DNA of 35,328 nt from Caldilineaceae bacterium SB0661_bin_34 (GCA_009841145.1 VXMJ01000050.1:1-35328), one strand, 5' to 3'. Numbered from the stretch's first letter, positions 8,958-29,678 are shown. Program-made: numbers and translations. The notes: generated by a model from the sequence alone, not told the origin.

Positions 8958-11531
8958 TCACAACCTTGGATCAACCGGCTCGCTCTCAAGCGCGAGTACC
9001 GCGAACGCGCACTCGTGTACCCGGTGAAGAGGCTCTCGCTCCACAAAACGCTGCAGGCCCTCCAGGCCCAACGCAAACTCCCGCAGGGCAAGTGACCGCT
9101 TCGTGGAGATGTTCCTTTTGCGCAGACGGTCCATGTTCTCCGACAGGGTGTACTCCGGTCCGTAGATGATGCGCAGGTATTCGGTACCCCGGCATTTCAT
9201 GGCAGGTTGCACCAAGCCGCGCGTGCCGTGCGCAACAAAGTCCATCGGCTTGGCGACGATGCCTTCCCCGCCCTTGCTCGTTAGTTCCTCCCACCAGGAT
9301 GTGGCCTCAACCTCATCCTCGGTATTCAGACGCACGACCTTGTGGTGGGTATCCCGGAACAACCCTGGATCGGCTGTGTGCAGGCGTCCGGCCACACCCA
9401 TATGCCACAGGTGGTCCTTCCCGACATGCACTTGGCCCTCGCTCGCCAACAGGTGGAACGGCGCCAATTGGATATCGGCGAGCGATGTTACCGGCCAGCA
9501 GTACCGGGCGTAGGCATCACTGTAGAGTTGAGTGAGGTTCAGCCGCTCCGCAACTCTGGCCAAGGCTTCACCAACGTCGATGCCGCGCTCCATCGTTTGC
9601 CGGAGGAGGGATTCGGCGGCCGTGAGACTGGTCCGCGCGGCCACGCCCACCGCGGCATATTGTTCGCGGAGCAGTTCCTGTGCCTTGAGGGACCACGGCA
9701 TAAGTTCACTGTCCAGTACGACCCAATCGGTCTCCAGTTCAGCCCAAAGACCGGCATCCGCAATGCCCTTTCGGATACGTTCCAGGAATTGCGCCTCAAG
9801 GATGCGGTCTTCAAAGAACCTCCGTCCGGTACGCGTGTAGCAGGTGCCGATGTCTTCACCTGCGATGCCAAAGCGCCGTTCGATGGCTGCGGCATCCTGC
9901 CCAACCACGACCACGGCCCGTGAACCCATGTGTTTCTCTTGGCAGACTACCTCGGACACGCCGTTGTTGCGGAAGTGGGCAAACACCTCGGTTGGATGTT
10001 CGAGTACACCAGGGAGCGCGGAGGTCTCACACGGGGAAATGGTCGGCGGGAGATACACCAGCCAGCGGGGGTCCAGGGCAAAACGGCTCACAACCTCAAG
10101 CGCCGCCGCTGCGTTTTCTTCCCTTACTGTGATATTGCCGCGGAGCCGAGTCGCAACGATGCGCTTACCAATTACGTCTCCAATGTCAAGGACGTTCGCC
10201 GCGCGGGTCCCGGCCGACACAACGGAAACCTCCGACTGGACATCCTCGGCCACCGGTCTCACCGGTTCACAATAGACCTGCGCCGCCGGAACCGACACAA
10301 GCTCCTTTTCGGGGTACCGAAGTGCGGTCAGCCTGCCACCAAAGACACAACCCGTATCAATGTTGATGGTGCGGTTGAGCCAAGCGGGCTCCACAACTGG
10401 GGTATGGCCGTAGACCACCGTCGCCGGCCCGCGATAGCCAACCGCCCAATCGGCGCGTACCGGGAGACCAAATTCGTCCGTTTCCCCGGTGGTCTCGCCA
10501 TAGAGACAGAAGTCCCGGACGCGGGCCGATGCACGGCCCTGGTATTCCGCCTTCAACCCCGCGTGGGCCACCACCAGATTCCCGTCATCGAGCACATAGT
10601 GGCTGATCAGTCCATCCAGGAACGCAGCCGCCCGTTGTTGAAACTCCGGGGACTCCATTTCCAGCTGAGCGAGCGTTTCCGCCAGTCCGTGGGAAATCTG
10701 CACCTTCCTGCCCTGAAGTTTGCGGACGAGCTTGGCTTCGTGATTGCCCGCCACGCAAAACGCGGTGCCGTCCGCGGTCATGGACATCACCAGATTGAGT
10801 ACCTTGGCAACAGCCGGACCCCGGTCCACGAGGTCGCCAACGAATACGGCCTTGCGCCCCTGCGGATGGGTGACGGAAAAACCGGGTTCCCCGATGTCGT
10901 CGGCGCGGGTCTCCAACCTGTATCCGAGACGTTTCAGGAGGATGGCAAGTTCATCGAAGCACCCGTGGACGTCACCGATGATGTCGAACGACCCGTGCTC
11001 GTTGCGCAAGTTGACCCACATGGGCATCCGCTCAACGAAAGCCTCTTCAACCTCTTCAGGAGAGTTCAACACAAACACATACCGGAAGCCCTCGCGCTTC
11101 AACCTGCGCAGCGATCGTTTGAGCTGTGCGGCCTGATTGCGCACCACATGGGGGCCAAACGAGCGCTCCGGACGATCCTTGTTGCGGGCTAGGCACAGGG
11201 CCTCGGGCATGTTCAGGACGATGGCCACCGACAGGCAGTCGTGCTCCCGGGCGAGTCCCACCAGAGGCTTGCGCGCCCGCGGCTGCACGCTGGTGGCGTC
11301 AATGACGGTGAGGCGGCCGGCCCGCAGGCGCGTGGCCGCGATGAAGTTGAGCAGGGCAAAGGCGTCGGGCGTTGCGGACTGGTCGGTGGCGTCATCGGCC
11401 ACCATAGCCCGGCAGGTGTCCGAGGACACTACTTCCGTGGGTTTGAAGTGGCGGGAGGCAAAGGTGGACTTCCCCGAGCCCGTGGGGCCAATGAGAACCA
11501 CCAGACACAATTCGGGAATGGCGATCTTCAT
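8958..11531 (-). CDS. pnkp: Polynucleotide kinase-phosphatase-ligase, bacterial RNA repair enzyme Pnkp
   Basis: The 857-residue three-domain enzyme heals and seals broken RNA with Hen1. The 5' kinase has a P-loop GPTGSGKST (15-23) plus D38 and R41. The 2',3'-phosphatase has GDVHG (D187, H189), GDLVDRG (D233, R237), GNHE (N263, H264), H323, GHTP (H376) and D392. The ligase/adenylyltransferase carries nucleophile K533 in EKHMGSRAV. These fall at the same numbers I recall for Clostridium thermocellum Pnkp (870 residues), so the start at 11531 is well supported. The longer open frame upstream is Hen1 sequence in another frame. The ATG overlaps the hen1 stop by ATGA. All catalytic residues checked are present. 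Confidence 0.96.
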   Translation of the reverse strand: MKIAIPELCLVVLIGPTGSGKSTFASRHFKPTEVVSSDTCRAMVADDATDQSATPDAFALLNFIAATRLRAGRLTVIDATSVQPRARKPLVGLAREHDCLSVAIVLNMPEALCLARNKDRPERSFGPHVVRNQAAQLKRSLRRLKREGFRYVFVLNSPEEVEEAFVERMPMWVNLRNEHGSFDIIGDVHGCFDELAILLKRLGYRLETRADDIGEPGFSVTHPQGRKAVFVGDLVDRGPAVAKVLNLVMSMTADGTAFCVAGNHEAKLVRKLQGRKVQISHGLAETLAQLEMESPEFQQRAAAFLDGLISHYVLDDGNLVVAHAGLKAEYQGRASARVRDFCLYGETTGETDEFGLPVRADWAVGYRGPATVVYGHTPVVEPAWLNRTINIDTGCVFGGRLTALRYPEKELVSVPAAQVYCEPVRPVAEDVQSEVSVVSAGTRAANVLDIGDVIGKRIVATRLRGNITVREENAAAALEVVSRFALDPRWLVYLPPTISPCETSALPGVLEHPTEVFAHFRNNGVSEVVCQEKHMGSRAVVVVGQDAAAIERRFGIAGEDIGTCYTRTGRRFFEDRILEAQFLERIRKGIADAGLWAELETDWVVLDSELMPWSLKAQELLREQYAAVGVAARTSLTAAESLLRQTMERGIDVGEALARVAERLNLTQLYSDAYARYCWPVTSLADIQLAPFHLLASEGQVHVGKDHLWHMGVAGRLHTADPGLFRDTHHKVVRLNTEDEVEATSWWEELTSKGGEGIVAKPMDFVAHGTRGLVQPAMKCRGTEYLRIIYGPEYTLSENMDRLRKRNISTKRSLALREFALGLEGLQRFVEREPLHRVHECAFAVLALESEPVDPRL

Positions 11532-12928
11532 TGCGTAAAGATCCCCATCTGGGTCGGTGCCCCATGGTCGGGGTGGACAGGACCGATGTCCTGGAAACGC
11601 ACATCGTACCGGCGGCGGTTGGCAACCCGCCCCGACCAGTCCCGAAATTGCTCCCGCGTCCACTCGAACCGATGGTCCCCATGCCTGAATGCTCCGGCGG
11701 GCAACCTGTCGAACACCGCGTTGTGTTCTGCGTTGGGCGTCGTGACGAGGACAGCCTTGGGTTGCGCGGACCCGAACACGGCCTCCTCGAAGGCGTCAAG
11801 CCGCGGAGCATCGATGTGTTCAATCACCTCCATGGCTATGGCGGCGTCGTGGCCTGAAAGGCGGCTGTCCCCATAGACAAGGGACCCGTGCAGTAGGTTG
11901 ACGCGCTGCTGCTGCCGAGGGGGCAGGTCATTGAGGCGCAAACGCCGACGCGCTGTTGCCAATGCCCGGAGCGACACGTCAATGCCGGTGATTGAACGTA
12001 CTGAAGATTCACCGAGGAGGGCATGAATCAGTCTTCCTTCGCCACAACCAAGGTCAAGCACCTTGACAGCCCCAAGGCTGCGGAGCGCGTCCAGCACTGC
12101 CTGAATACGCTGCTCACTTAATCGAAGCGGGGTTTCAAGCTGTTTCTCTGCCTGTTCGTGCCGTGTAGCGGCGGTACCCGGATCCGTTGGCCCGGCATCG
12201 AGCAGTTGGACCAGCGCCTGATCGACAAGCCCGCGCTGATGCTTCAGGTAGCGGCGCGAGATGAGATCCCGCAACGGATGGCCGTCCAACCAACCCTCAC
12301 CAAAGCGCAGCAACTTGGCCACCTCATCGTCGCCGACCCAGTAGTGCTTGTGGTCGTCCAGGACAGGCAACAGCACATACAGGTGGACAAGCAGGTCCCG
12401 GAGCCGGGTCGTCGCCGCGAGGCGCACGCTGAAATATGGGCTGGGGCCCCACTCGGGAAAACGCTCGTCCAGCGGGCGACCCTCAATCCCTACGGCATAG
12501 CCAAGGGGTTCGAACAGATTCCCAATGAGGTCCGCGCCTTCCCGCGAGGGCACGACAGGGATCCGGGCTTCCAGAGGAATGGCCTGTTCCGCCAAATCCG
12601 GCCGGTCCCTGCTGTTGCCCGCGAGGGCACTGCCAAACACCTTGGCAATCGCCACGCTCAAGTGCGATGACGCCACGTAGGGACGGTCGTTGACGTACTG
12701 CTCCAACCAGCCGCCGCCCTTGGGCGCGCCGGGCTTCAGGCGTACAAGCCCCACCGGGTCGATGTTCAGCAGAAGCGCCACCGTGCAGCGGTGGCTTTCC
12801 GCTTCGGGATAGAAGACATCGGCCCGCCCGAACGGGAGTTTGAACGACTGAAATCGGGCGGGGTTCTTATGTACCAGGAACCCAAGATCGGTTGCAGGCC
12901 GATGCGTGGTGGAGATGGTTAGCAGCAT
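11528..12928 (-). CDS. hen1: Hen1, RNA 3'-terminal ribose 2'-O-methyltransferase
   Basis: 466 residues. The bacterial Hen1 N-terminal domain opens MLLTISTTHRPATDLGFLVH, ending the opening block with VFYPEA. The C-terminal methyltransferase has the SAM loop LDLGCGEGR (291-299) and the metal-binding set E367-x-x-E370-H371 plus H419 (HRFEWTREQF). Hen1 methylates the 2'-OH at the break during Pnkp repair, so that a ribotoxin cannot cut there again. The N-terminal domain also stimulates Pnkp ligation in studied systems. The gene is intact and translationally coupled to pnkp. It lies 234 bp downstream of a small unknown gene and a PIN toxin-antitoxin pair on the same strand. Confidence 0.95.
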   Translation of the reverse strand: MLLTISTTHRPATDLGFLVHKNPARFQSFKLPFGRADVFYPEAESHRCTVALLLNIDPVGLVRLKPGAPKGGGWLEQYVNDRPYVASSHLSVAIAKVFGSALAGNSRDRPDLAEQAIPLEARIPVVPSREGADLIGNLFEPLGYAVGIEGRPLDERFPEWGPSPYFSVRLAATTRLRDLLVHLYVLLPVLDDHKHYWVGDDEVAKLLRFGEGWLDGHPLRDLISRRYLKHQRGLVDQALVQLLDAGPTDPGTAATRHEQAEKQLETPLRLSEQRIQAVLDALRSLGAVKVLDLGCGEGRLIHALLGESSVRSITGIDVSLRALATARRRLRLNDLPPRQQQRVNLLHGSLVYGDSRLSGHDAAIAMEVIEHIDAPRLDAFEEAVFGSAQPKAVLVTTPNAEHNAVFDRLPAGAFRHGDHRFEWTREQFRDWSGRVANRRRYDVRFQDIGPVHPDHGAPTQMGIFTQ

Positions 12929-13449: not shown

Positions 13450-13869
13450 TCAGGGCAAATCCAGGTTGTTGAAAGGATTGAGCACCTTGGCCCCGGTGGG
13501 TTCGAAATGGCGGACGTTGCGGGTGACTACCGCGAGATCGTGCTCGATAGCGGTCGCCGCAATGAGGAGATCGACGTTAAAGTGGCCCAACTCTCCAGAG
13601 AGTTGGCCCCAACGCTCGGCGATGGCTGCGTTCACAGGGATGACGCGGTCGTCAAACCATGTGATCGTCCGCTCCAGCCATAAGGTGAGATCGCGTGCAA
13701 AGTCCGGATTGTGTCGCCGTTGCCGGACGATACCGCGCGCCAGTTCCGCCAGCGTTACGACGCTGAGATGCAAGTCGGCCTGACGCTGGGACTCCAGCCA
13801 CTGGAAGACAACGGGATGGCGATTTGGTCTGCGTCTGAGAGAAACCACATCCGTGTCAAGCAAGAACAT
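13450..13869 (-). CDS. vapC: VapC/FitB-type PIN-domain toxin
   Basis: 139 residues with PIN acidic residues D5 (MFLLDTDVVS), E42 (TLAELARG) and D100 (FNVDLLIAATA), plus the N118 position in VVTRNVRHFEP. The LVTRN-HF ending and the tail GAKVLNPF are typical of FitB/VapC toxins. It starts 2 nt after the antitoxin stop. It is a likely Mg2+-dependent RNase, normally tRNA-directed. This pair stands directly upstream, on the same strand, of the Hen1-Pnkp RNA-repair genes. Confidence 0.9.
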   Translation of the reverse strand: MFLLDTDVVSLRRRPNRHPVVFQWLESQRQADLHLSVVTLAELARGIVRQRRHNPDFARDLTLWLERTITWFDDRVIPVNAAIAERWGQLSGELGHFNVDLLIAATAIEHDLAVVTRNVRHFEPTGAKVLNPFNNLDLP

Positions 13870-13871
13870 GG

Positions 13872-14126
13872 TCAGATGTCCAGTGGCCGGGCCTCAAGAG
13901 GCATGCGCTCGAACTCCTCGCCACCCTGAGGGAAGGCCAAGAGGTGATCAACGAAAGTAGGCGCGCGGTCCTTCTCCGCTTGGCAAAGCCGCTTATAGTC
14001 CTCGACCGCCACCACTACGACGGCGGGAGTGCCCCTGCGGGTGACCGTTTGGGGTTTTCCGGCCAAAGCGGCATTCACCACGGCACTGAAGCGGTTTTTG
14101 GCATCCTGCAAAGCCCATTCAGACAT
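13872..14126 (-). CDS. Phd/YefM-family antitoxin
   Basis: 84 residues: MSEWALQDAKNRFSAVVNAA, then GKPQTVTRRGTPAVVVVAVE, the classic Phd/YefM N-terminal DNA-binding fold. A short C-terminal toxin-binding tail follows (FVDHLLAFPQGGEEFERMPL). GGAGG lies 5-6 nt upstream of the ATG at 14126; the longer open frame upstream is not supported. It partners the PIN toxin starting 2 nt after its stop. A 7-bp inverted repeat at 14137-14154 just upstream is the probable autorepression site. Confidence 0.9.
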   Translation of the reverse strand: MSEWALQDAKNRFSAVVNAALAGKPQTVTRRGTPAVVVVAVEDYKRLCQAEKDRAPTFVDHLLAFPQGGEEFERMPLEARPLDI

Positions 14127-14136
14127 GGCTCCTCCG

Positions 14137-14154
14137 GCTAGCCAACTGGCTAGC
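14137..14154. promoter_or_regulatory. Inverted repeat GCTAGCC-AACT-GGCTAGC, probable Phd operator
   Basis: Perfect 7-bp arms (14137-14143 and 14148-14154) with a 4-nt centre lie 11 nt upstream of the Phd-type antitoxin start, overlapping its leader. Phd proteins bind such dyads. An 11-mer from its left side (GGCTAGCCAAC) recurs at 14348-14358. Confidence 0.45.
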
Positions 14155-14340
14155 TTGAATTTGTTGTCATAGCATACCAGATAAAAGGCGTTGCCACAGA
14201 TTGTTCCACGCAACAACGGAGGCAACTTCCGTTTCATTGATTTTGCTCCGTGTCCAGAATGGATATCGCCGGACGCGCAGAATGTCCCGATCGTTTGCTC
14301 AGACCACCGTGCTCCACGGCTTGCAGCATCTACCGGTAGA

Positions 14341-14451
14341 GCGGTCTGGCTAGCCAACGTGGCCTGGGACGAACTGTTCACCTCCGTCACGGAGCATCTG
14401 GGGACTCTCGACGACGTGCTCACGATCGACGAGACAGGCTTCCCCAAGTAA
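14341..14451 (+). pseudogene. Relic of an IS701/DDE-type transposase
   Basis: The forward frame ending at 14451 reads AVWLANVAWDELFTSVTEHL followed by GTLDDVLTIDETGFPK and a stop. The pattern W-D-E-L...V-EHLG...D-VL-IDETGF is that of the first catalytic aspartate region of IS701-family transposases. The reading frame has no start and ends right at the IS630-family element that begins at 14454. It is an isolated fragment of about 37 codons. Family call from a short stretch. Confidence 0.45.
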
Positions 14452-14453
14452 TA

Positions 14454-15605
14454 CCAATCCAGTATGGCTATGCGACTTGAGTGTTGGTGGGCAGGGCCTC
14501 CAGGGCATCCCGGATCCAGCCCCAGCCACACAGCTGCCGCACCCGCTTGGGGTCCGCCTGCCAGGCCTCCAGCACCGGCTGCAGCGCGTCCTGCTTGGCC
14601 TGCAGGGTCGGATAGACGCGGCCCTCAACGGCCCGGCGCAACTCCCGGAAGAAGCGTTCCACCGGGTTCAGCTCGGGGGCGTAGGGCGGCTGCACCACCT
14701 GGGGCGCGTCCACGGTCTGCATGTCCTCGCCCGTGTGGCCGCGGGCCCCGTCCCAGACCCAGCCGTCAATGGCCGGCTCCTTCGCCCAGATGCCCCAGAT
14801 GCGGGCCATCTCCTCGCCCTTCATGTTCTGTTGCCAAGCCCACCACAGCCGCCCCGTCAGGGGGTTGATGGCCACGGCCACATAGATGTACTTCCAGCCA
14901 ATCTGCACAGCCTGGGACACCGCCACGCCGCGCGGGGCCCACACTGGGCGCACTTGGCCGCGCAGCCCCAGCTTCATCTCGTCGCCCCATACGATCCCCT
15001 GCCCCGCCTGCAACCCGACCGCCGTCAGCCGTTCCCCGAGCCCCCTTTTTTCCAGGCCGCCTGGGCCAGGGGATCGGATTTCGTGGGGCGGGGCCGCGGC
15101 CGCTTCAGCCGGATCCCCAGCCGCGGCAGCAGCGTGTACAGGCTGTCGCGGGTGTAGACCACTCCGAACTCGGCCTCCAGCCAGTCCCGCACGGCCTGGG
15201 CCGTTGCAAACATCCCCCTGGCCGCCGCCGCCACCAACTGTTCCTGCTGCGTCGGCGTCAGGTAGGAGGGCTTCCCCACGCCACCCTTGCGCCGGCCGCA
15301 CACCATCGCCAGGCCGCCCTCCCGGTACCACTGCAGCCACCGCTGCACACTGCTCCGCTGCACCCCCAGGGCCGCGGCCACGGTCGTGGGTGTCCAGCCC
15401 GCCTGCGGCTGGCGCAGCAGCCACAGGGCATGCAGCCGTGTGCGTACGACACCATCGGCTTCGGCCAGATAGCGTTGGTGCAGGGCCTCGGCGGTGTCGG
15501 CCTCCGCCCAGGGAATGACGGCGGGACGGGCCATGGCGGAGGGCTCCGGTGACAGGCAGGGGGACAGACAAGCCTACATCAAGTCCCTCTTTTACGCTAG
15601 ATTGG
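14454..15605 (-). mobile_element. IS630-family insertion sequence, 1152 bp
   Basis: The element is bounded by imperfect inverted repeats. The left end CCAATCCAG... (14454-14480) and right end (15579-15605, reverse complement CCAATCTAG...) share 17 of 27 positions, including the outer CCAATC and inner ACTTGA. TA dinucleotides flank both ends (14452-14453, 15606-15607), matching the TA target duplication of IS630/Tc1-like elements. It carries one transposase in two frames and is a different subfamily from the two copies at 32254 and 34024. Confidence 0.75.
14468..15534 (-). CDS. IS630-family transposase, two frames joined by -1 slippage
   Basis: The N-terminal frame (start 15534, stop 15025) holds the DNA-binding helices: GWTPTTVAAALGVQRSSVQR and a second winged-helix segment. 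The C-terminal frame (to 14468) holds the DDE catalytic core: IVWGDEMKLGLRG (D), WVWDGARGHTG (D) and YAPELNPVERFFREL (E). The frames meet at a homopolymer run, A6 then G5 on the coding strand (15041-15051), where a -1 slip gives AWKKRGLGERL. IS630 elements often use such slippage, so I treat it as one functional gene. A simple frameshift mutation is the alternative. Confidence 0.8.
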
Positions 15606-17076: not shown

Positions 17077-19922
17077 CTAGCCAAGTCGCCTGTACCGGTT
17101 CCTAAACGCCTCCCGGCCGCCCTCCATCACTCGGCAGACCTCATCTCGAATGGTCTCTTCCTGCAGGGAGCCGGACTGTTTGACGACGCACTGGCCTCTA
17201 TCGAATGCCAGTGCGTGGACCATTTCCGCATCACCGTTTACGACGATGTTGGGGTTATGGGTCACCACGATGATCTGGCGTCTGAACTTGTTCTCTCTAA
17301 TCTGGCGCACGACCAGGTCATAGATCAGATGGTTGTCCAGGTCGTCTTCCGGCTGATCGAGGACCAGAGGTTCCTCTCCATGCGCCAGCAGGAAAGCCAG
17401 CATTGCCGCGGATCGCTGGCCGGCTGACGCCTGCGAGATTGGCTGAAAGTCCTTACCATCCCCTGTCCGACTGTACCTGACGGCAAGTCCATCCTCCGGG
17501 AACCAGGTCAGGAGGTTGTCGAGCAACTCCGGCCGGCGACCAGACTCCCGTTCAAGATAGTTGTTCAGGCGGCCGCCAAAGTCACCCTGCCCAGCACACG
17601 CCGATTCGAGTCGCTGCTTCAGCTCTGCCAGACGGTCATCTACCTTTGCGATTCGCGCATCGGGATCGTCCGGCAGTCCCTTGAGGAAGTCAGCTACAAT
17701 GCCCTTGGAGGGCGACTGGCCGCCTCCGGTGAGTATGTCATCGGCAAACCTGTCATCGGGGACGTTTAGCACCTGGCGGAAGGACCGCTCGATGATCTGC
17801 AGGTCGTCCCCATAGGGCTGAACCTCTATCCGCACGAAGTTGTTCTGTGACAGTGCGTTGGCCAGAAAGTCACGGCGGGCACGAGTCATGGCGCGGCGCA
17901 TCTCACCGGCTTCTTGTAGGCGCTGCTGAGCTTCTCCCACAAGCCTGGCTTGTTCATCCCTGTCCGACTGGAGGTCCTTCATCACGATTTCGAGTCGCTG
18001 CTTTTCCTGTACCAGGGATGCGTACTCGTTCGGGTCCGTGACGCCCTCCTCTTCAAGGCTCTTGACCTGGTCGCGATAAGCCTTATCGGCCTCCTCCACC
18101 AGCGCCGCCCACCTACTATTGTTCAGCGTTTCGCGCTGAGACTCGGCGACTCCTCGGAGGTTCTGCGCTACTTCCCGCGACTGTTGGCGTGCCGTCTCAA
18201 CAGCCGCCCTCAGTGCGGCCGCCAATTCGACGACCTGCCGGTCCTCTTGCGATGATTCTTCGAACAGATCATCTGGCAGGTCGTCCATGCTGAGGCTCTC
18301 TGCCGTGGCTTCGATCCGCTTTGCGGCTTCCTCGACCGCCTCGAACTGGCGGTCTATCTCCTGGCGTTGTCGCTGACGGCCACGATAGGCTGTCAAGACG
18401 GCCGTATGCCCTGACTCTTCGAAGCGGACGAGCTTACGCTCCACGTCCTGGAGTGCAATCGCGGTCGGGCCCTCAAGTCCGCCCAGCTTGCTTTCCAGCT
18501 CGCGAATCCGCGCCTTGGAGGAATCGAAGGCTGCGACAGCCATATTGAGCTTGCTCTGCAGCTCTCCGACTCCGGCGGCCCGGTCGATCTCTCTCAACAG
18601 CGCCGTCGGGTCGTCCCCGGCCAGTTCGGCGATCTGTCCCTGGCTAAACAGCTGGAGGGGAAACCGGTCCGCCGTAACGTCCTGCACGCCTGAGGGTTGC
18701 CACTGACCGGACGTGGGCTCATCCTCGACAGACGTCGCCTTGTCGTCCTTCGCCCAGTTGACGCGATGCTTCACGCCGTCACGGGTCAGCGTCCACCGGA
18801 TGTTCGTGGAGTCCGTCAGGCCGCCGGCCTTGGTTTGGTCGGGCGGCACCTGATTGAACCGATCGAACGTTGTTTTGGATTCGCTGTTGCTGGGCAGCGC
18901 CTCGAAATCCGAATGACGCCGCGCCGCGATTCTCAGCGCATGGATGACCGTTGACTTGCCCGTCCCCCGTCCTCCGATCAAGGCGTTCAACCAAGGGTTG
19001 AAGTCCAGCCTCGCAAACGTTGGCCCGCGCCCCATGTAGCGCGCCTCGCCAATCTCTATGGACTCGATGCGGTGACCCGGCAACGTGAATGGATCGAAGG
19101 CTTCCGGCGTGTCGCTTCGCCGGATGGAGAAGCCCCCACCGTCGAGCAGCGCCAGACGCAGCCCTTCAAGGGATGGCCTTGCCATCTTCACCCAGGTGTA
19201 GTGGGAACCCGGATAGTGCTCTTCGGACTCGCCATCGGGGTGATGCGAGTCGGACCCGAGGACCTCAGCCCAGGCCAGCTTCCGCTGCACGTACAGTTCC
19301 GGCTTCTGGAACCCCGGGTCCACATCGCCAGGATGCCCTCACAGTCCAGCACTTGGTTGACAGTGCTGGCATCGAGCGCCAACTTCTTCGAGCCGGGGCT
19401 TTGGGTGCGAAGCAGGCCCTTGGACCTGTCCGCGTGGGCGAGAATGGGGATCCCTCCTCTGTCCAGGACGGTCTCCACAACCTTCACGGGTGATGCCTTG
19501 GTAACGCCGTCGCTGTGTCCCTTGGTGCCGTCATAGTCGACGGCGCCAAGGAGCAAGTCGATGTCGGACGTGGTCGCGTCAGTGTCGAAGATCGCGAGAA
19601 GATGGAAACCCCCATTGACGGATAGCTCCACTCCGGGGAACAGGTGAAGGGGCCGGAACTCCGGGTGGTTGGACGACTCGAGGTCGTCCAGCTCCTTCCT
19701 GAGGTGGTCAAACGATTTACCGGTGTTGTGGTCTGTGACTGCCACGCAGTCGACCTCGGCGCGCATGAAGCCGAGCAGCCACTCCGACAGTGGGCGTTGC
19801 TTCAGGGAGGACTGGTTCTCTCCCTTGCCATAGTCCACGGACGCCTTGGTGTGAGTGTGGAAGTCAAACTTCCACCACCTGGCGCCCGGGTGGTTCCAAT
19901 CGGTGCTTGGGTCAGTCGTCAA
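17077..19922 (-). pseudogene. PHP-domain plus SMC-like ATPase (TrlF-type architecture), one frameshift
   Basis: One ~948-codon gene read in two frames. The TTG start at 19922 has GGGAGG 8 nt upstream. N-terminal PHP phosphoesterase motifs in order are FDFHTHTKAS, VAVTDHNTG, PGVELSVNGGFHLL and ILAHADRSKG. After a one-base loss near 19325 the second frame continues VDPGFQKPEL and supplies the last PHP motif GSDSHHPDG. The ATPase follows: Walker A GGRGTGKST, a long coiled-coil middle, signature SAGQRSAAM, Walker B LVLDQPEDDLDN, and VVTHNPN. The PHP motifs straddle the shift, so the parts were one protein. The C-terminal frame has an in-frame GTG (19323) and stays open for 748 codons. The shift may be recent, a sequencing error, or recoded. 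Likely a nucleic-acid-directed ATPase-nuclease. Confidence 0.85.
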
Positions 19923-19978
19923 GCTCGTGTCCTCCCCGTTTCTGTTTCTTCGACAGGCTGGGTCGGGCGCGCCGGCCC

Positions 19979-20404
19979 CTAGCTCCCTGCCTCTTGAGCG
20001 CGCCCCGCGACTCCGACGGGGCCGCGCCTTCCCGGTATCACCTCTACCGGTGTGGGAATGAGCCACTCGGAGCCGGCCTTCACGGCGCCGCGGACCCTTC
20101 CGTCCCTGGCCAGCTTGCGCACCCGACGCTCCGAGACGCCTAGGCGGAGAGCCGCCTCTTTGACCGTGACATTGCCGATGTCATCGGGAGCGACCTCGGA
20201 TCCCAGCTCGAACTCGATGGGGCTCGGATCCTTGAGGGTGCTCATCTCGTGGATCAGGAACCCGATGACCTCGCCGTCGTCGTCCAGCCGCTTGAGGACC
20301 CGTTCGTCGTCGGTGGCCGCGAAGTAGCCCTCCCTGAGAGCCCACAGGACCTCAAGCATGTCCCCCTCGTGGTCGTAGGAGACAAACACCTTTCTGCTCG
20401 TCAT
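19979..20404 (-). CDS. DUF2283-like protein fused to an excisionase-type HTH domain
   Basis: 141 residues from ATG 20404. Residues ~5-65 resemble DUF2283 (VSYDHEGDMLEVLW ... VIGFLIHEMSTL), a small fold frequent in antitoxins. Residues ~79-120 form a MerR/excisionase-type helix-turn-helix (VTVKEAALRLGVSERRVRKL, then DGRVRGAVKAGSEWLIP). The start overlaps the upstream toxin-candidate stop as ATGA, and the stop is 56 bp before the PHP-ATPase TTG. It is probably the antitoxin and the DNA-binding repressor of the operon, acting at the palindrome in the promoter. The role is inferred from domain pairing and order. Confidence 0.75.
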   Translation of the reverse strand: MTSRKVFVSYDHEGDMLEVLWALREGYFAATDDERVLKRLDDDGEVIGFLIHEMSTLKDPSPIEFELGSEVAPDDIGNVTVKEAALRLGVSERRVRKLARDGRVRGAVKAGSEWLIPTPVEVIPGRRGPVGVAGRAQEAGS

Positions 20405-20890: not shown

Positions 20891-22630
20891 CTACAGACCG
20901 GCCTTACTCAACTCATCCTGCAACGCGCGCAATCGATGGTGGCGTTCCCGGAACTCCGCCATGAAGTCGGTCCACGCCGGTTCCTGCGACATCTGTCGAT
21001 ACAGGTCCCGCATCGTGGTCAGGTAGGTACACGCCTGCTGGTATCGCTCCCGACCGCGAGCCTCCACCAACTTCTCCGCTTGCTCCCGGTAGAGCTCGGC
21101 GGCGGCCTGGGGACGTGTCTCCGCCGCGGCTTCGGCCACTCGCATCCACTGGCCATAGTAAAAACCCTGACTGGGTTGGCGTACCGATTTCAACGCCAAG
21201 TCTATTTCGCCTTCGTCCAGATGGATGTCCGTCAACAGGCCGTATTGCCGGGCGGCGGCCCACTCGGCCAGCAACTCCGGGCGTGTTGCCTGCCAGATAC
21301 CGAGACGCTGGGACAACTCCCGTACGTCCTGGTACGCGGCAAGGTCTTGGCGTTGTTCGAGCAACTGTTGGGCCAGGACCAGAGCCTCATCCAGTTCCCC
21401 GCGTTCTTCATGCTGCTCCTTGAGCCACGCTATCAAACCATCGATGCGGGTCGTTTCGATTCTCTCGGCCACCAACGGTTCCAACCTGCGGCCATGGCCA
21501 TGTGCGCCGAATAGCCCCGCCAAGGTCAGCAATTCCATGTCTCCGGCCCGACCGGCTTCGGCCAACGCCTCGTCCAACCGCCCCAGCGTCAGCAGGCGAT
21601 CCACCAAGTCGTCCAAGAGACCACTCTCACGGCAGATCTCCAGGAAGGCGTCGTCGTCCAGGTGGTCGGCCTCCAAGTCCAACAGGATACTGCCGTACGA
21701 TCGGCGTCGAAAGCTGTCGTACTCACCTGTGGCCGCCTGCATGGCGGTCCGCGCCCAACCGGCAACGACCCTCTTCTCGTCGTCGTCGGCATGTTCCAGT
21801 ATGAGTCCCTCCGCTTCATCCCCCATACCGTATCCTCCATAGTTCAGGTCCAAACGGAATATTTCAAAGAGGGCTTGCAGGGCGTTCTCTCTGGCCGCGG
21901 CGTTGCCGTCCTCCGCGGTCAGGCAGTTGCCAAGCCCTTGGATGCACCGGTTCACCACTTCGTGCATTTCCTCGCCGTCTTCGTCGTACACCATCTCAAA
22001 ATGCTCAAACATCTCCTGTGCCACTGCCAGGTACACGATGCCAGCGTTGGCGTAATCGGACTTGGCCAGGAAGTTGTCGCCGGAGCCCAATACCACGTTG
22101 ATGTCTCCGACACCGCCCCAGTCCCAGCCGTCAACACCGGATCGGATGGCGAGCTCTGCCTGCCGACGGTAACTTTCCGGGTCGACCAAGGGGCTGCTCT
22201 GGCCGTCTTCGGGCGGAGGCGCCTCCAGCAGGGCTTCGAAGGTAGGGTGGGCTTCCACCATTTGCTTGATGAGGGCAATCAGTTCCGACTGGCTGCGTCG
22301 CTCCAAGTTCGGGTCCAGTTCTTCCACCTCCCGGAAGGAATCAGGATCGTCCAACCAGGTCAGTAGCAAGGCCGCGACGTGCTTGCAACGTCCGCCGCCA
22401 CCCACCGGGCAGGAACAATCAGCCTCCTTGATCCCTTCGGTGCCGCAGGCAACCCACAAGCGGTAGGGTTGGGGCCTGGAGCCTTGACACCAGGCCTTGA
22501 GGGTGTTGTCTTGAAGGCGCGGCTCGAGGATGTCCCCACGCTTGAAGTAACTGCGGCCGCGTTGGAAGCTTCGTGAGCCCACCCAATCGGATATGGCCCC
22601 TTCGTTCACTGCAGGGAAGGGATTGCTCAT
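20891..22630 (-). CDS. SWIM zinc-finger protein, tandem copy 1
   Basis: 579 residues from ATG 22630 (GAGGAG 11 nt upstream; an in-frame GTG at 22639 is possible). The N-terminus carries a SWIM zinc finger CxCx7CxH: C72, C74, C82, H84 in ADCSCPVGGGGRCKHVAALL. The remaining ~480 residues are acidic and helical with repeat-like segments (LLTLGRLDEALAEAGRAGDM, ELLAEWAAARQYG), suggesting a TPR/HEAT-like alpha-solenoid scaffold. It ends RALQDELSKAGL. SWIM domains bind DNA or proteins. No enzyme domain is visible. The next copy upstream (23223-24962) matches along the whole length, about four-fifths identical by eye. Confidence 0.85.
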   Translation of the reverse strand: MSNPFPAVNEGAISDWVGSRSFQRGRSYFKRGDILEPRLQDNTLKAWCQGSRPQPYRLWVACGTEGIKEADCSCPVGGGGRCKHVAALLLTWLDDPDSFREVEELDPNLERRSQSELIALIKQMVEAHPTFEALLEAPPPEDGQSSPLVDPESYRRQAELAIRSGVDGWDWGGVGDINVVLGSGDNFLAKSDYANAGIVYLAVAQEMFEHFEMVYDEDGEEMHEVVNRCIQGLGNCLTAEDGNAAARENALQALFEIFRLDLNYGGYGMGDEAEGLILEHADDDEKRVVAGWARTAMQAATGEYDSFRRRSYGSILLDLEADHLDDDAFLEICRESGLLDDLVDRLLTLGRLDEALAEAGRAGDMELLTLAGLFGAHGHGRRLEPLVAERIETTRIDGLIAWLKEQHEERGELDEALVLAQQLLEQRQDLAAYQDVRELSQRLGIWQATRPELLAEWAAARQYGLLTDIHLDEGEIDLALKSVRQPSQGFYYGQWMRVAEAAAETRPQAAAELYREQAEKLVEARGRERYQQACTYLTTMRDLYRQMSQEPAWTDFMAEFRERHHRLRALQDELSKAGL

Positions 22631-22959
22631 GACTTCCACCGCTCCTCGCGCTGGCTTGTTCCCTGGGTTGCCCGATGCAGGACACTCACACTGATCGCGT
22701 CAGCCGGTCCCGAACTTTATCGTTCGCGCACGGTCTTCCGACACGCAGCCAACAAACAAGAGGCGCCCTGAGGCTCTCGCAACTGAACCTACCATCCCTC
22801 TCGGCGAATCTGTTCCGCGCGTCGCCAGCGCAACCAAACGGGCTGTACCATGGGCCCGACCCCGACTGCCAAGGGGCATCGCATCCTTCATCAACCATTT
22901 TCGCATCATTCGAAAGCGAACCCAGGGCGATGGCCGAGACCGCACTGTCTCATTCTCGT

Positions 22960-23105
22960 TGATGCGGACATTTGCCCATTGTAGACGGCTCAGTACCCGG
23001 CACTCCACCGTGTCCGGCACCGACCGGTTTGGCGACACTCGGCCCAGCACGTCCGTCGTGTCTGTGGCTTCGGTTCCAAATCAACGAAACCGAAACAGTG
23101 CTCTA
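22960..23105. repeat. Direct repeat A (~145 bp) between SWIM copies 1 and 2
   Basis: This block aligns nearly gap-free with 27275-27420; shared cores include CGGACATT, CCACCGTGTCCGGCACCGAC, GCGACACTCGG and AATCAACGA. It lies about 330 bp upstream of copy 1, within a 590-bp gap (22640-23222) that otherwise shows nothing coding. On the reverse strand the two repeats can be translated to similar peptides, but copy A has a frameshift, so it is either a decayed small gene or a regulatory block duplicated with the genes. Confidence 0.7.
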
Positions 23106-23222
23106 TCCGGTGGGATGACAGGCAGTTGGGGCCGACCACACAGGGCCACGGGCGACACGAAGTGGGCGAAGCGCGGATTCCAGAGACCGTGCCCGACACC
23201 GGCTACAGCTACTGGCTCCAGG

Positions 23223-24962
23223 CTACAGGCCAGCTTTGCTTAACTCATCCTGCAACGCGCGCAATCGACGGTGGCGCTCCCGCAACTCGGCTATGAAGTC
23301 GGTCCACGTCGATTCCTGTGACATCTGTCGGTAAAGGTCCCGCACCTTGGTCAGATAGATACATGCCTCCTGGTATCTTTTCCGACCGCGAGCCTCAATC
23401 CACTTCTCCGCCTGTTCCTGGTAGATTTCAACCGCGGCTTGGGGCCGTGTCTCCGCAGCGGCCTGAGCTACTCGAATCGACCGGTCTCCGACATAGGGAG
23501 AAACCCGCTCCAGTTGCCGCACCGATTTCAACGCCAGATCAATTTCGCCTTCGTTCAAGTAAACATCGGTCAACACGCCGTATTGCCGGGCGGCGGCCCA
23601 CTCGGCCAGCAACTCCGAACGTGTTACCTGCCAGACGCCAAGACGCTGGGACAACTCCCGTACATCCTGGTACCTGACAAGGCCGGGGCGTTGCTCAAGC
23701 AACTGTTTGGCCAGGACCAGAGCCTCGGCCAGTTCCCCGCGTTCTTCGTGCTGGTCCTTGAGCCACACCACCAAACCATCGATGCGGGTCGTTTCGATTT
23801 GTTTGGCCACCAACGGTTCCAACCTGCGGCCGTAGCCATGTGCGCCGAATATCCCCGCCAGGGTCAGCAAGTCGAAGTCTTGGGCACGATCAGCTTCGTC
23901 CAACGCCTCGTCCAACCGCTCCAGCGTCAGCAGTCGGTCCACCAAATCATCCAGGCGGCCACTGTCACGGCAAATCTCCAGAAAGGCATCATCGTCCAGG
24001 TGGTCGTCCTCCAAGGCCAGCAGGAAACCGCCGTATCTTTGGCGTCGATAGCTGTCGTACCGGCCTGTAGCTGCCAACATGGCAGTCCGCGCCCAATCGG
24101 CAATGACCCTCTTCTCGTCGTCGGTGGCATGATTCAGTATCAGGTCCTCCGCGGCTTCCCCCGCATACCCTCCATAGTCCGAGTCCGAACGGTATATGGC
24201 AAACAGGGCTTGCAGGGCTGTCTCTCTGGCCGCAGTATCGCCATCCCCGTCGGCCAGGCAGGTCCCAAGCCCTTGAACGCATCGGTTCACTACTTCGTAC
24301 AAGTACTCGCCGGTGTATTCGTCGAGCACCATCTCAAAATGCTCAAACACCTCCTGAGCCACCGCCTGGTACACGATGCCGGCGTTGGCGTAATCGGACT
24401 TGGCCAGGAAGTTGTCGCCGGAACCCAATACAATGTTGATGTCCCCGGTGCCACCCCAATCGTCAAAACTGGTTCGGATGGCAAGTTCTGCCTGCCGACG
24501 GTAACTTTCCGAGTCGACCAAGGGACTGCTCCGGCCGTCTTCGGGCGGAACAGCCTCCAGCAGGGACTCCAAGGTGGGGTGAACTTCCACCATTTGCTTG
24601 ACGAGGGCAATCAGTTCCGACTTGCTGTACCGCTCCAGGTTCGTGTCCAGTTCTTCCACCGCGCGGAAGGAATCGGGTTGGTCCGACCAGGTAAGCAGCA
24701 ACGCCGCGACATGCTTGCAACGTCCGCCGCCACCCACCGGGCAGGAACAATCGGCCTCCTTGATGCCTTCGGTACCACAAACAACCCACAAGTGGTAGGG
24801 CTGGGGTCTGGAGCCTTGACACCAGGCCTTGAGAGTGTTGCCTTGAAGACGCGGGTCGAGGATGGCCCCACTCTTGAAGTAACTGCGACCGCGTTGGAAG
24901 CTTCGTGAGCCTACCCAATCGGATATGGCCCCTTCGCTCACTGTGGGGAAGGGATCGCGCAT
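23223..24962 (-). CDS. SWIM zinc-finger protein, tandem copy 2
   Basis: 579 residues from ATG 24962, with AGGA 4 nt upstream. It has the same plan as copy 1, with intact zinc ligands C72, C74, C82, H84. The helical body is conserved (LLTLERLDEALDEADRAQDF, VRELSQRLGVWQVTRSELLA, ALKSVRQLERVSPYVGDRSI) and the C-terminus is identical to copy 1 over its last residues (RALQDELSKAGL). Differences cluster around residues 205-290 and 500-515 (copy-specific insertions such as EYTGEYLYEV). No damage is visible. It is separated from copy 1 by repeat A and from copy 3 by an IS110 relic. It may form hetero-oligomers with copy 1. Confidence 0.85.
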   Translation of the reverse strand: MRDPFPTVSEGAISDWVGSRSFQRGRSYFKSGAILDPRLQGNTLKAWCQGSRPQPYHLWVVCGTEGIKEADCSCPVGGGGRCKHVAALLLTWSDQPDSFRAVEELDTNLERYSKSELIALVKQMVEVHPTLESLLEAVPPEDGRSSPLVDSESYRRQAELAIRTSFDDWGGTGDINIVLGSGDNFLAKSDYANAGIVYQAVAQEVFEHFEMVLDEYTGEYLYEVVNRCVQGLGTCLADGDGDTAARETALQALFAIYRSDSDYGGYAGEAAEDLILNHATDDEKRVIADWARTAMLAATGRYDSYRRQRYGGFLLALEDDHLDDDAFLEICRDSGRLDDLVDRLLTLERLDEALDEADRAQDFDLLTLAGIFGAHGYGRRLEPLVAKQIETTRIDGLVVWLKDQHEERGELAEALVLAKQLLEQRPGLVRYQDVRELSQRLGVWQVTRSELLAEWAAARQYGVLTDVYLNEGEIDLALKSVRQLERVSPYVGDRSIRVAQAAAETRPQAAVEIYQEQAEKWIEARGRKRYQEACIYLTKVRDLYRQMSQESTWTDFIAELRERHRRLRALQDELSKAGL

Positions 24963-25196
24963 GATGTCCTGCTGTTTCCTTGCAATCCCGCACAGACAGC
25001 CGCGCAGGAGAGGTCCCTAACGGAAACGCCTCTCACCGTGCAGCCATCCTTGGAACGCGGACATTGCGGGCGCACTCTGAGCGGGCTAGATGCTGGACAC
25101 AGGGCGGACCGTCAGGCTCGTTGATAGAGGCATCCGGCTGCCGAGGTACGCCCTTTGCGGTTGCCACCAGGCAAAGGAAACAGTCAGTATAGTGGA

Positions 25197-25352
25197 CAGT
25201 TGAACCGCGCGATCCGGCAATCCCGAGCCGGGCTGCTGTGCAGTGTGCCCGAGGAGGATCCGGTCGTGGCCGCCGTGCTCATGTCCGAGTTTCCGGACGT
25301 GAACCGTCGCAACGGGTGTGGGATTGCCACGCCGGCCGGTGCGTCCCTCTGA
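25197..25352 (+). pseudogene. IS110-family transposase relic
   Basis: The forward frame reads QLNRAIRQSRAGLLCSVPEE, then DPVVAAVLMSEFPDVNRRN and IATPAGASL before a stop. This matches the order of the C-terminal IS116/IS110/IS902 domain (L-raI-S...LL-SVPG-GPV-AA-LL-ELPE...AL-G-AP), including the nearly invariant SVP and AA-L. No N-terminal catalytic part is present, and the glycines of SVPGxGP are replaced. It lies in the 496-bp gap (24963-25458) between SWIM copies 2 and 3, where a third direct repeat might be expected. The rest of the gap shows nothing I recognise. Confidence 0.5.
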
Positions 25353-25458
25353 ACCGAAACAGAAGTCGGTATCAGTGCCGTGCCTGAGGCGGTCGCGCTT
25401 CCGTAGGCGATCCCCTGTATCGTCACCATGACCGGCACCGGATGACGCCAGCGCAGGG

Positions 25459-27205
25459 TTACAGACCAGCGTTGTCCAACTCATCCTGCAGCGCGGGCAA
25501 GCGACGATGGCGTTCCCGGAACCCGACCATGAAGTCGGTCCACGCCGGTCCCTGTGACATCCGGCGGTAAAGGTCCCGTACCTTGGTTAGGTAGACGCAC
25601 GCCTGCTGGTAGTTGTCCCGACCGCGCGCCTCGACCAACCTCTCTGCTTGTTCCAGGTAGATTTCCAGGGAAGCTTGGGGGCGTGTCTCCGCCGCGGCTC
25701 GGGCCACTCGCATCAACCGGTCGCCACCATGGGAAAACACCTGCGTTTGTTGTCGCACCGATTTCAACGCCAGATCCATGTCGCCTTCTTCCAGATGGAT
25801 GTCGGTCAACAGGCCGTATTGCCGGGCGGCGGTCCACTTGGCCAGCAACTCCGAGCGTAATGCCTGCCAGCCCCCAAGTTGCCGGGAAAGCTCCCGTACA
25901 CTCCGGTACCTGTCAAGGCCGGGGCGTTGTTCGAGCAGTCGTTGGGCCAGGGCCAGAGCCTCGGCCAATTCCCCTCGTTCTGCGTATCGTTCCTTGAGCC
26001 ACTCCACCAAACCATCGACGCGGGTCGTTTTAATTCGCTTGACCAGCAACGGTTCCAGCCTGCGGTCGCAGCCATGTTTGCGGAATACCCCCGCCAGGTT
26101 CGGCAAGTCTGAGTCCCCGGCACGATCGGCTTCGGCCAACGCCTCGTCCAACCGTCCCAGCGTCAGCAGGCGGTCCACCAAGTCGTTCAGGCGGCCGCTC
26201 TCGCGGCAGATCTCCAGGAAGGCGTCGTCGTCCAGTCGTCCGTCTCCAAGTCCAGCAGGAAACGGCCATACTCTTGGCGCTGATAGTCATCGTACTTGCC
26301 TGTGGCTGCCAGCATGGCGGCCCGCACCCGACCGGCAATGGCATTCTTCTCCTCGCCGGTGGCAAGTTCCAGAATGAAGTCCTCCGCAACTTCCGCCAAA
26401 CCGAACTGTCCTATGTCCATGTGGAAACGGTACATTTCAAAAAGGGCTTGCAGAGCCCTCTCCCTGACCGCAACGTCACCGTCCCCGGCAGCCAGGCAAT
26501 CCGCCAGCCCATCGACGCACTGGTGTATCACATCCCACAGGTAGTCTTGGTTGTCCAGCATCATGTCGTAATGTTCCAACAACCCCTGGAGCACCGCCTG
26601 GTACACGATGCAGGCATTGGCATGGTCGGACATGTCCATGAATTCATCGCCAGTGTCCATGGCCATGTCAATGTCCGCGACAACCTGTCGGGCTGCATTC
26701 CGATCATCGCCAGCGCGTTGGAAGGCGGACACTATCTGCCGACGGTAACTTTCCGGATCGATCGTCGTGCGGCCCCGGTCGCCCCCGGGCAGTGCCGCCT
26801 CCAGCAGGGCCTCCAGGTTGGGCTGAACCTGCAGCATTTGCCGGATGAGGACAATCAGTTCCGACTTGCTGAGTTGCTCCAGGTTCATGTCCGGTCTTCC
26901 ACCGCGCGAAAGGCAGCGGGTTGGTCCAACCAAGCCAGCAGCAGTGCCCCAACGTACTTGCAACGTCCACCGCCACCCACCGGACAGGAACAATCTGCCT
27001 CCTCGATACCTTCGGCACTGTAGGTATCCCGCAAGCGGTAAGGTTGGGCCTTGGAGCCTTGACACCAGGCCTTGAGGGTGCAGCCTTGAAGGCGCGGCTC
27101 GAGGATGGCCCCATCCGCAAGGTAACTGTGACCGAGTTGAAAACTCCGTGGGCCTACCCAGTCCGATATGGCCTCTTCGTTCACTGCCGGGAAAGGATTG
27201 CTCAT
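25459..27205 (-). pseudogene. SWIM zinc-finger protein, tandem copy 3, degraded
   Basis: The same gene as copies 1 and 2 but in three frames. ATG 27205 starts MSNPFPAVNEEAISDWVG. A one-base loss near 26893 (after FRAVED) shifts to the frame reading MNLEQLSKSELIVLIRQML. A second one-base loss near 26236 (after LDLETDD) shifts to the frame containing MVDRLLTLGRLDEALAEADR and ending LPALQDELDNAGL at 25459. The SWIM motif reads ADCSCPVGGGGRCKYVGALL. The zinc-binding histidine is Tyr84 (TAC for CAC), so the finger itself is probably lost. Damage in three independent places makes sequencing error an unlikely full explanation. It is the most divergent of the three in the middle region. Confidence 0.85.
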
Positions 27206-27274
27206 AGAGATCTCTGCCGCCTGCCCGTGGGCTTGTTCGCCCGATGCAGGACTTGAGGACTGTTTCATATCTCA

Positions 27275-27420
27275 TTGATACGGACATTCACCTGCTGTAG
27301 ACAAATCAGCACCGCGTGTCCCACCGTGTCCGGCACCGACTGGTTTTTGCGACACTCGGCACAGCATGTCCGTCGCGTCCGTGGCCTCGGACCAAAATCA
27401 ACGAGCATGAAACAGTGCCC
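27275..27420. repeat. Direct repeat B (~145 bp) upstream of SWIM copy 3
   Basis: Second copy of the block at 22960-23105, in the same orientation, 70 bp upstream of the copy 3 start. Order and spacing of the shared cores are kept (CGGACATT, TGTAGAC, CCACCGTGTCCGGCACCGAC, CACTCGG, AATCAACGA, AAACAGTGC). A reverse-strand frame (27265-27501) is open through it and contains CCAEC, but has no recognised family. It probably duplicated together with the SWIM gene. Confidence 0.7.
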
Positions 27421-28412: not shown

Positions 28413-29678
28413 ATGGCGCATCTGGAAGCGCGATACTGGGAGGGTCAGGCTGCTGGACCAACTCGGCGTGATCGCCGTCCCTGCAACTACTCGGTCTACT
28501 TGCCCGATACATTGTCCGACCGCCGGTTCGTCCTCGACGGCGACGTGGCCGCAGACGTGGCCGCCGCTGAGACCGCCCTCGTGCGGCTTGACACTGCTGC
28601 CTCCGCGCTTGCCAACACCGAGGCGCTGGCCCGGCTCCTGCTCCGCGCGGAGTGCGTCGCCTCGTCCCGCATTGAAGGCTTGGAGGTGGGGGGACGGCGA
28701 TTGCTCCGCGCCGATGCAGCGCGGCAGCTGGGTGAAGACCCCAGGGATGTTACGGCCACGGAAGTGCTCGGCAACATCAACGCGATGGTCTGGGGGGTAC
28801 GCGGCGTGGAGCCCGGTGGCATGATGACGGTGGAGAGTCTGCTGGAGGTGCATCGCCGTCTGCTGGCCGGTACCCGTCTTGAGGAACACGGGGGCCGCAT
28901 TCGCGACATGCAGAACTGGATTGGCGGCAGTGATTACAATCCTTGCTCCGCAGAGTTCGTGCCGCCGCCGCCAGAGAGAGTGGCCCGCCTTCTGGACGAT
29001 CTGTTCACCTTCTGCAACGATGACTCGCTTCCGGCGTTGGCACAGGCGGCCATCGCCCATGCGCAATTCGAGACCATCCATCCGTTCGTGGACGGCAACG
29101 GACGTACAGGACGGGTGCTGTTTCACTTGATCATGCGCCGCCGGGGGCTCGGACTGCGCATTCTGCCCCCGATTTCCCTTATTCTTGCCACGTGGTCGCG
29201 GGACTATGTTGCCGGGCTGACTGCGACCCGCTATGTCGGCCCTTCAGACTCCGACGAGGCCCACGCCGGAGTCAACCGGTGGATCGCGCTCTTCGCGTCG
29301 GCGTGCCACCGGGCGATTGATGACGCCAGCCGCTTTGAAGAGCAGGTGCGCACATTGCAGAGGTCCTGGCATGAACGGGCAGGACATGTCCGTCGCGACT
29401 CTGCGGCTCGCCTGCTCATCGAAGCACTCCCGGCAGTGCCGGGGCTCACAACCTCCACCGCCGCGGAGTTGATTGGACGGTCATTCCAGGCAGCAAGCCA
29501 AGCAATAAATCAACTCATGGAGGCGAGAGTGTTGGCACAAGTCACCGTCGGCAGGCGCAATCGCATATTTGAAGCCCCCGAGTTGATTGAGGCCTTCACC
29601 GCGCTGGAGCGACAGCTCGCGAGCCCCGAGGGCAACACGCGCGTCTCCAGACCCGTCCGGCACGTTCCTCGACGGTAG
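28413..29678 (+). CDS. fic: Fic-domain protein (AMP-transferase type) with N-terminal inhibitory motif and C-terminal winged helix
   Basis: 421 residues. The Fic catalytic motif HPFVDGNGRTGR occupies 223-234 and predicts transfer of AMP (or another nucleotide) to a hydroxyl of a target protein. The inhibitory helix SSRIEG (S84, E88, G89) places it in the class with intramolecular N-terminal inhibition. The G-R-IR-x-QNWIGG segment (161-172) is the target-binding flap region. C-terminal residues ~330-405 look like a winged helix (TTSTAAELIGRSFQAASQAI, then MEARVLAQVTVGRR). ATG 28413 follows the Shine-Dalgarno in the inverted repeat. The gene is intact. It stands after a VapBC pair, but its inhibitory helix is built in, so no separate antitoxin is needed. 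Confidence 0.92.
   Translation: MAHLEARYWEGQAAGPTRRDRRPCNYSVYLPDTLSDRRFVLDGDVAADVAAAETALVRLDTAASALANTEALARLLLRAECVASSRIEGLEVGGRRLLRADAARQLGEDPRDVTATEVLGNINAMVWGVRGVEPGGMMTVESLLEVHRRLLAGTRLEEHGGRIRDMQNWIGGSDYNPCSAEFVPPPPERVARLLDDLFTFCNDDSLPALAQAAIAHAQFETIHPFVDGNGRTGRVLFHLIMRRRGLGLRILPPISLILATWSRDYVAGLTATRYVGPSDSDEAHAGVNRWIALFASACHRAIDDASRFEEQVRTLQRSWHERAGHVRRDSAARLLIEALPAVPGLTTSTAAELIGRSFQAASQAINQLMEARVLAQVTVGRRNRIFEAPELIEAFTALERQLASPEGNTRVSRPVRHVPRR

Follow-up and report, generated by a model that had tools for sequence, protein, structure and literature searches.

The SWIM array and its genomic setting

The window analysed here is the whole stretch of 35,328 nt within contig C5 of a 4.34-Mb, 98% complete Caldilineaceae MAG (Chloroflexota), whose nearest named relatives are also Caldilineaceae MAGs. 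From 20891 to 27205, on the minus strand, we found three homologous units arranged head to tail with no enzyme ORF between them, in agreement with the original prediction. Each unit has an N-terminal SWIM region followed by a long helical body. Copy 1 (a-type, 20891..22630) is intact and encodes a protein of 579 aa (582 aa if the alternative GTG start at 22639 is used), with a SWIM finger (CxC...CKH) at 22358..22456 and a predicted alpha-solenoid. Copy 2 (b-type, 23223..24962) is intact as well, is also 579 aa long and has its SWIM finger at 24690..24788. With scores of 27.6 and 28.3 bits for PF04434 (Pfam gathering cut-off 19.6), copies 1 and 2 were the only proteins in the genome that passed the Pfam SWIM cut-off. 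The Pfam scan of these two copies returned the SWIM domain alone, and no other domain, effector domains included, was recognized in their bodies. Amino-acid identity is 79% between copies 1 and 2 and 64-65% between copy 3 and either of them, which is far beyond chance.

For comparison we used this genome and three congeners (G001, G002 and G003), representing four species of the genus. Three full-length paralogues had been predicted from the window; copies 1 and 2 are full-length, whereas copy 3 (c-type, 25459..27205, minus strand) is broken in the assembled sequence and has intact orthologues in G001 and G003. Comparison with each of the intact copies shows that a single base is missing at about 26895 and a further one at about 26235, so that the protein is divided into three pieces, each in a frame of its own. 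The zinc-ligand motif CxC...CKH now ends in CKY, with the His ligand lost. Both lesions are single-base deletions known from assembled sequence alone, and the comparison of copy 3 with its orthologues (omega 0.39-0.44) still looks like that of a constrained gene, as would be expected if the breaks were assembly errors and all three copies were intact genes. However, the reading frames of copies 1 and 2, Pnkp, Hen1 and Fic close by are clean, the SWIM His was removed by substitution and not by deletion, and array copies have been broken independently in G002 and G003. We regard assembly error as an unlikely explanation of copy 3.

A segment of about 150 bp upstream of copy 1 (22954..23101) is repeated upstream of copy 3 (27270..27418) with 77-82% identity, and this diverged repeat was not found before copy 2. 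It is probably a remnant of the original duplication unit. Promoter and terminator scans gave results no better than those for shuffled sequence.

On one side, the array is flanked by a gene for a Fic protein (PADLOC SoFic model, 28413..29678, plus strand), which is a conserved flank in G001 and G003. The other side carries a TrlF/Ppl-type PHP-ATPase, an anti-phage ATPase, on the minus strand (17077..20066), split in two overlapping frames (PHP part 19188-20066 and ATPase part 17077-19323). TrlF/Ppl is found at the array position in this genome only and is absent there from the three congeners. Congeners carry type I restriction-modification genes on that side (HsdM, plus HsdS in G003); in this genome, the relative of HsdM is located on another contig. 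The array thus lies at the edge of a defence region whose gene content changes. The surroundings had been described as full of TA and IS elements, and genes of both kinds do occur nearby: a PIN-domain toxin and Phd/YefM antitoxin pair (13450-14531, minus strand) and, next to it, a DDE_3 transposase ORF (14468-15571). We also observed an adjacent RNA-repair pair, Pnkp (901 aa) and Hen1 (466 aa), at 8958-12928 on the minus strand, both over the NCBIfam cut-offs.

To compare this setting with that of other family members, we examined the three ORFs closest to the gene on either side at 20 family loci elsewhere, together with control regions. Transporters and metabolic genes made up most of the neighbours. 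A small number matched PADLOC models (type I restriction proteins, one SNF2-type protein and generic methylase models), and in this coarse comparison, based on counts per model and a simple ORF rule, no clear excess of defence neighbours over control regions was seen in the 20 loci. A conserved operon partner was also considered and rejected, as an all-against-all comparison of the neighbours at these loci revealed no recurrent adjacent gene.

Age, decay and selection of the array within the genus

All three congeners have the array or its remnants at the same place, and the order Fic-c-b-a-type I restriction genes is conserved in G001 and G003. G001 retains three intact copies. Orthologues in this genome and in G001 are 92% (a-a), 86% (b-b) and 80% (c-c) identical, whereas paralogues within either genome are 78-79% (a-b) or 60-65% (c versus a or b) identical. 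Since each copy is more similar to its orthologue in G001 than to its own paralogues, sequence comparison places the triplication before the split of these species, and the array is old and genus-wide. The tandem amplification and divergence originally proposed are indeed observed, but a recent amplification is rejected. Across all four species, b-b identities are 77-86% and a-b identities 73-81%. In the codon tree the c copies form one clade with 100% support, and the placement of the G003 b copy is weak (55%).

The fate of the copies differs among species. In G003, the third copy (a) is reduced to its last ~200 bp, a 3' remnant with a stop. The c copy of G002 likewise has a stop and is cut off by the end of its contig, and all four species retain an intact b copy. 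This is an old array under birth-and-death evolution, and the species differ in which copy has decayed. The triplication is confined to one genus among the genomes surveyed.

The b copy of G001 (L023 4669-6414, minus strand) carries an a-type segment over codons about 201-350. Since it joins the a copies in these codons at 100% bootstrap, gene conversion has taken place between tandem paralogues in G001.

Pairwise NG86 omega values were 0.31-0.59. Under M0, the eight intact copies gave an omega of 0.48 and the b orthologues alone one of 0.44, compared with 0.031 for rpoB and 0.30 for the flanking Fic gene from the same genomes. The copies are constrained yet fast-evolving. Site models were fitted with our own implementation of a maximum-likelihood codon model, on eight sequences in which recombination is present; M8 was better than M8a (LRT 13.2). 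As gene conversion can inflate such site tests, a separate tree was used for each of three partitions, which gave a summed LRT of 10.35 (p=0.016, 3 df), of which 6.8 came from the initial half of the solenoid (codons 201-350). M2a alone gave p=0.018, with a posterior of 0.95 reached at no site. Constraint is relaxed, and positive selection in addition to this is modestly supported, most strongly in codons 201-350. Diversifying selection acting on the three copies had been suggested, to be examined by dN/dS region by region; the elevated omega and the modest signal that persists after partitioning agree with it, but the assembled sequence does not support three functional copies in this genome.

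Domain anatomy, known relatives and distribution of the family

AlphaFold modelled the body as a TPR-like alpha-solenoid, the kind of C-terminal structure for which prediction had been proposed as a check. Residues about 150-440 were modelled best, with pLDDT 69-93 over residues 220-440 (the shallow alignment limits the model), whereas pLDDT was <50 for most of residues 1-145, so that the SWIM half is of low confidence. Structural comparison matched the model with TPR superhelices (Foldseek E from 1.9e-4; VIA-align Z about 10, a value common for helical repeats). A family profile built from 25 members matches designed TPR proteins at positions 344-432, and Pfam TPR models reach their cut-off in 1 of 10 relatives scanned. 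As modelled, the body is similar to TPR superhelices such as OGT, LapB and designed TPRs in its helical repeats, but rmsd is high and a shared fold says nothing of function. The predicted SWIM finger followed by a long helical body is supported by Pfam for copies 1 and 2 and, for the body, by the model.

Against the PDB, human ZSWIM8 (9rwz) was the sole SWIM-bearing chain matched by the family profile (hmmsearch E=1.8e-15, ZSWIM8 residues 129-457). The alignment is strong over the pre-SWIM strands, the SWIM domain and the D-domain helices, and weaker beyond. On this alignment, the N-terminal third of the family is homologous to ZSWIM8, including the dimerising region. ZSWIM8 is a CUL3 substrate receptor in target-directed microRNA degradation. 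Its SWIM domain (172-208) organises a dimer that holds the AGO2 complex in a clamp made by a pair of solenoid arms, and its D-domain (225-268) dimerises the protein (PMC13083262). Both proteins share the SWIM domain, the preceding strands, the following D-domain segment and an alpha-helical solenoid downstream. On the other hand, the bacterial protein is much shorter and its C-terminal solenoid is unmatched by sequence. ZSWIM8 is matched from residue 129 onwards, past its BC/cullin box (71-111), and the bacterial profile from position 15, which leaves no room for a BC/CUL3 box, and no ubiquitin pathway is implied. A Cut8-like dimerisation segment was considered as well and set aside, as it appeared just as a sub-threshold Pfam match (104-167) in one relative, which is a hint only.

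Among defence models, copies 1 and 2 match PADLOC PDC-S62 (profile PDLC05053, 566 positions) with E=4.3e-14 and 3.6e-18, respectively, and a cyanobacterial relative matches it with E=6e-21. The match consists of separate stretches and does not run end to end (the best ones are the SWIM end, 13-132, for copy 1 and the C-terminal end, 408-571, for copy 2), and no curated cut-off is given for this profile. PDC-S62 has the same single-gene architecture and a similar length, but it is a candidate model only, and here the gene stands in a tandem array. Our literature search found no paper that names PDC-S62. SWIM domains are also contained in, or accompany, SWI2/SNF2 ATPases of the SsoRad54 type in mobile and conflict systems (PMC5512222); the array proteins differ in lacking an SNF2 ATPase domain, and none was recognized beside the array. 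The family is already known as PDC-S62-like and uncharacterised, and the array, in which one copy is broken, is an old, genus-limited tandem duplication at a hotspot rich in defence genes.

The 25-member profile detected the family in 93 of 298 genomes of the class (E<=1e-15, some short SWIM-only matches included) and in 29 of 301 genomes of the phylum (E<=1e-40). Outside the genus, full-length matches are patchy and usually number one per genome. The search for further arrays that had been suggested yielded none in these ~600 Chloroflexota genomes: with the best four or fewer candidates scored per genome, no adjacent full-length pair was present among the matches listed. Uniform purifying selection on single-copy orthologues in housekeeping contexts, named beforehand as the pattern opposed to diversification, is what we see outside the genus but not inside it. 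Plasmids of Halobacteria, Cyanobacteria and Rhizobium carry relatives of ~600 aa, annotated as SWIM zinc finger family proteins, some of them near toxin-antitoxin or CRISPR genes. That the family is virus-borne was rejected, as three viral-contig scans gave 0 relatives and there was no PHROG match; a phage collection contained one SWIM match with 12% coverage.

Possible role of the copies

We consider it about an even chance that copies 1 and 2 are stand-alone adaptor or receptor clamps, encoded by a triplicated array under birth-and-death evolution and directed at a changing partner. In such a protein, a zinc-binding SWIM domain and the dimerising helical segment after it would form the core, from which the ~400-residue TPR-like solenoid would project as a clamp on a protein or nucleoprotein partner. 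By analogy with ZSWIM8, the product may be a zinc-organised dimer with two TPR-like arms gripping that partner. Because the SWIM half of the model is of low confidence, the putative dimerisation is read from the alignment. The gene was triplicated in one Caldilineaceae genus before the sampled species split, at a place where defence genes come and go, and the copies then diverged fast in the solenoid, were overwritten occasionally by gene conversion and were lost one by one, as copy 3 here. The partner may plausibly be an invader or a conflict-related target that changes over time. A conflict role is plausible at this locus because of the PDC-S62 match and the flanking Fic and type I restriction genes or TrlF/Ppl. 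In this respect, the defence or conflict role initially suggested is plausible on the local evidence, but the 20 loci elsewhere, where defence genes were in no clear excess, give no clear support for such a role of the family as a whole.

A stronger version would be that the array is a working anti-phage locus of the PDC-S62 type, in which each paralogue recognizes a different invader component and triplication widens the range. The PADLOC match, the defence-related flanks, the fast-evolving and gene-converted solenoid and the plasmid-borne relatives near toxin-antitoxin or CRISPR genes are all in line with it. However, PDC-S62 is a candidate model, the protein has no recognized effector domain, family members have no recurrent gene beside them and no clear enrichment of defence neighbours, and the copies decay readily, so that we find this version rather doubtful. 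The opposite possibility, to which we give a chance somewhat short of even, is that family members serve as accessory scaffolds in regulation or quality control, for example as stress or proteostasis adaptors, and have no conflict role, and that the array is a local duplication eroding under weak selection. Such a scaffold would fit the single-copy, patchy occurrence across the class beside metabolic genes, the relaxed constraint and the loss of different copies in different species. It fits less well with an array that, despite its age, keeps b intact in four species and three intact copies in G001, and with an omega that is well below 1 overall while a class above 1 is present. A more far-reaching idea, in our opinion quite improbable, is that the array is a conversion-shuffled repertoire of ZSWIM8-like dimeric clamp receptors for invader nucleoproteins, and that eukaryotic ZSWIM substrate receptors have in this family a prokaryotic relative and possibly their source.

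The array offers a natural test bed for the partners of PDC-S62-like SWIM proteins, with three old paralogues in four species at one position. The SWIM/dimerisation link with ZSWIM8 suggests that the core of the microRNA-decay receptor has bacterial and archaeal relatives without ubiquitin ligases. Among the archaeal ones, a SWIM gene on a Halovenus plasmid (L034 3955-7522) lies between SprT-like and helix-hairpin-helix genes, all in one direction, and this arrangement is possibly an archaeal operon.
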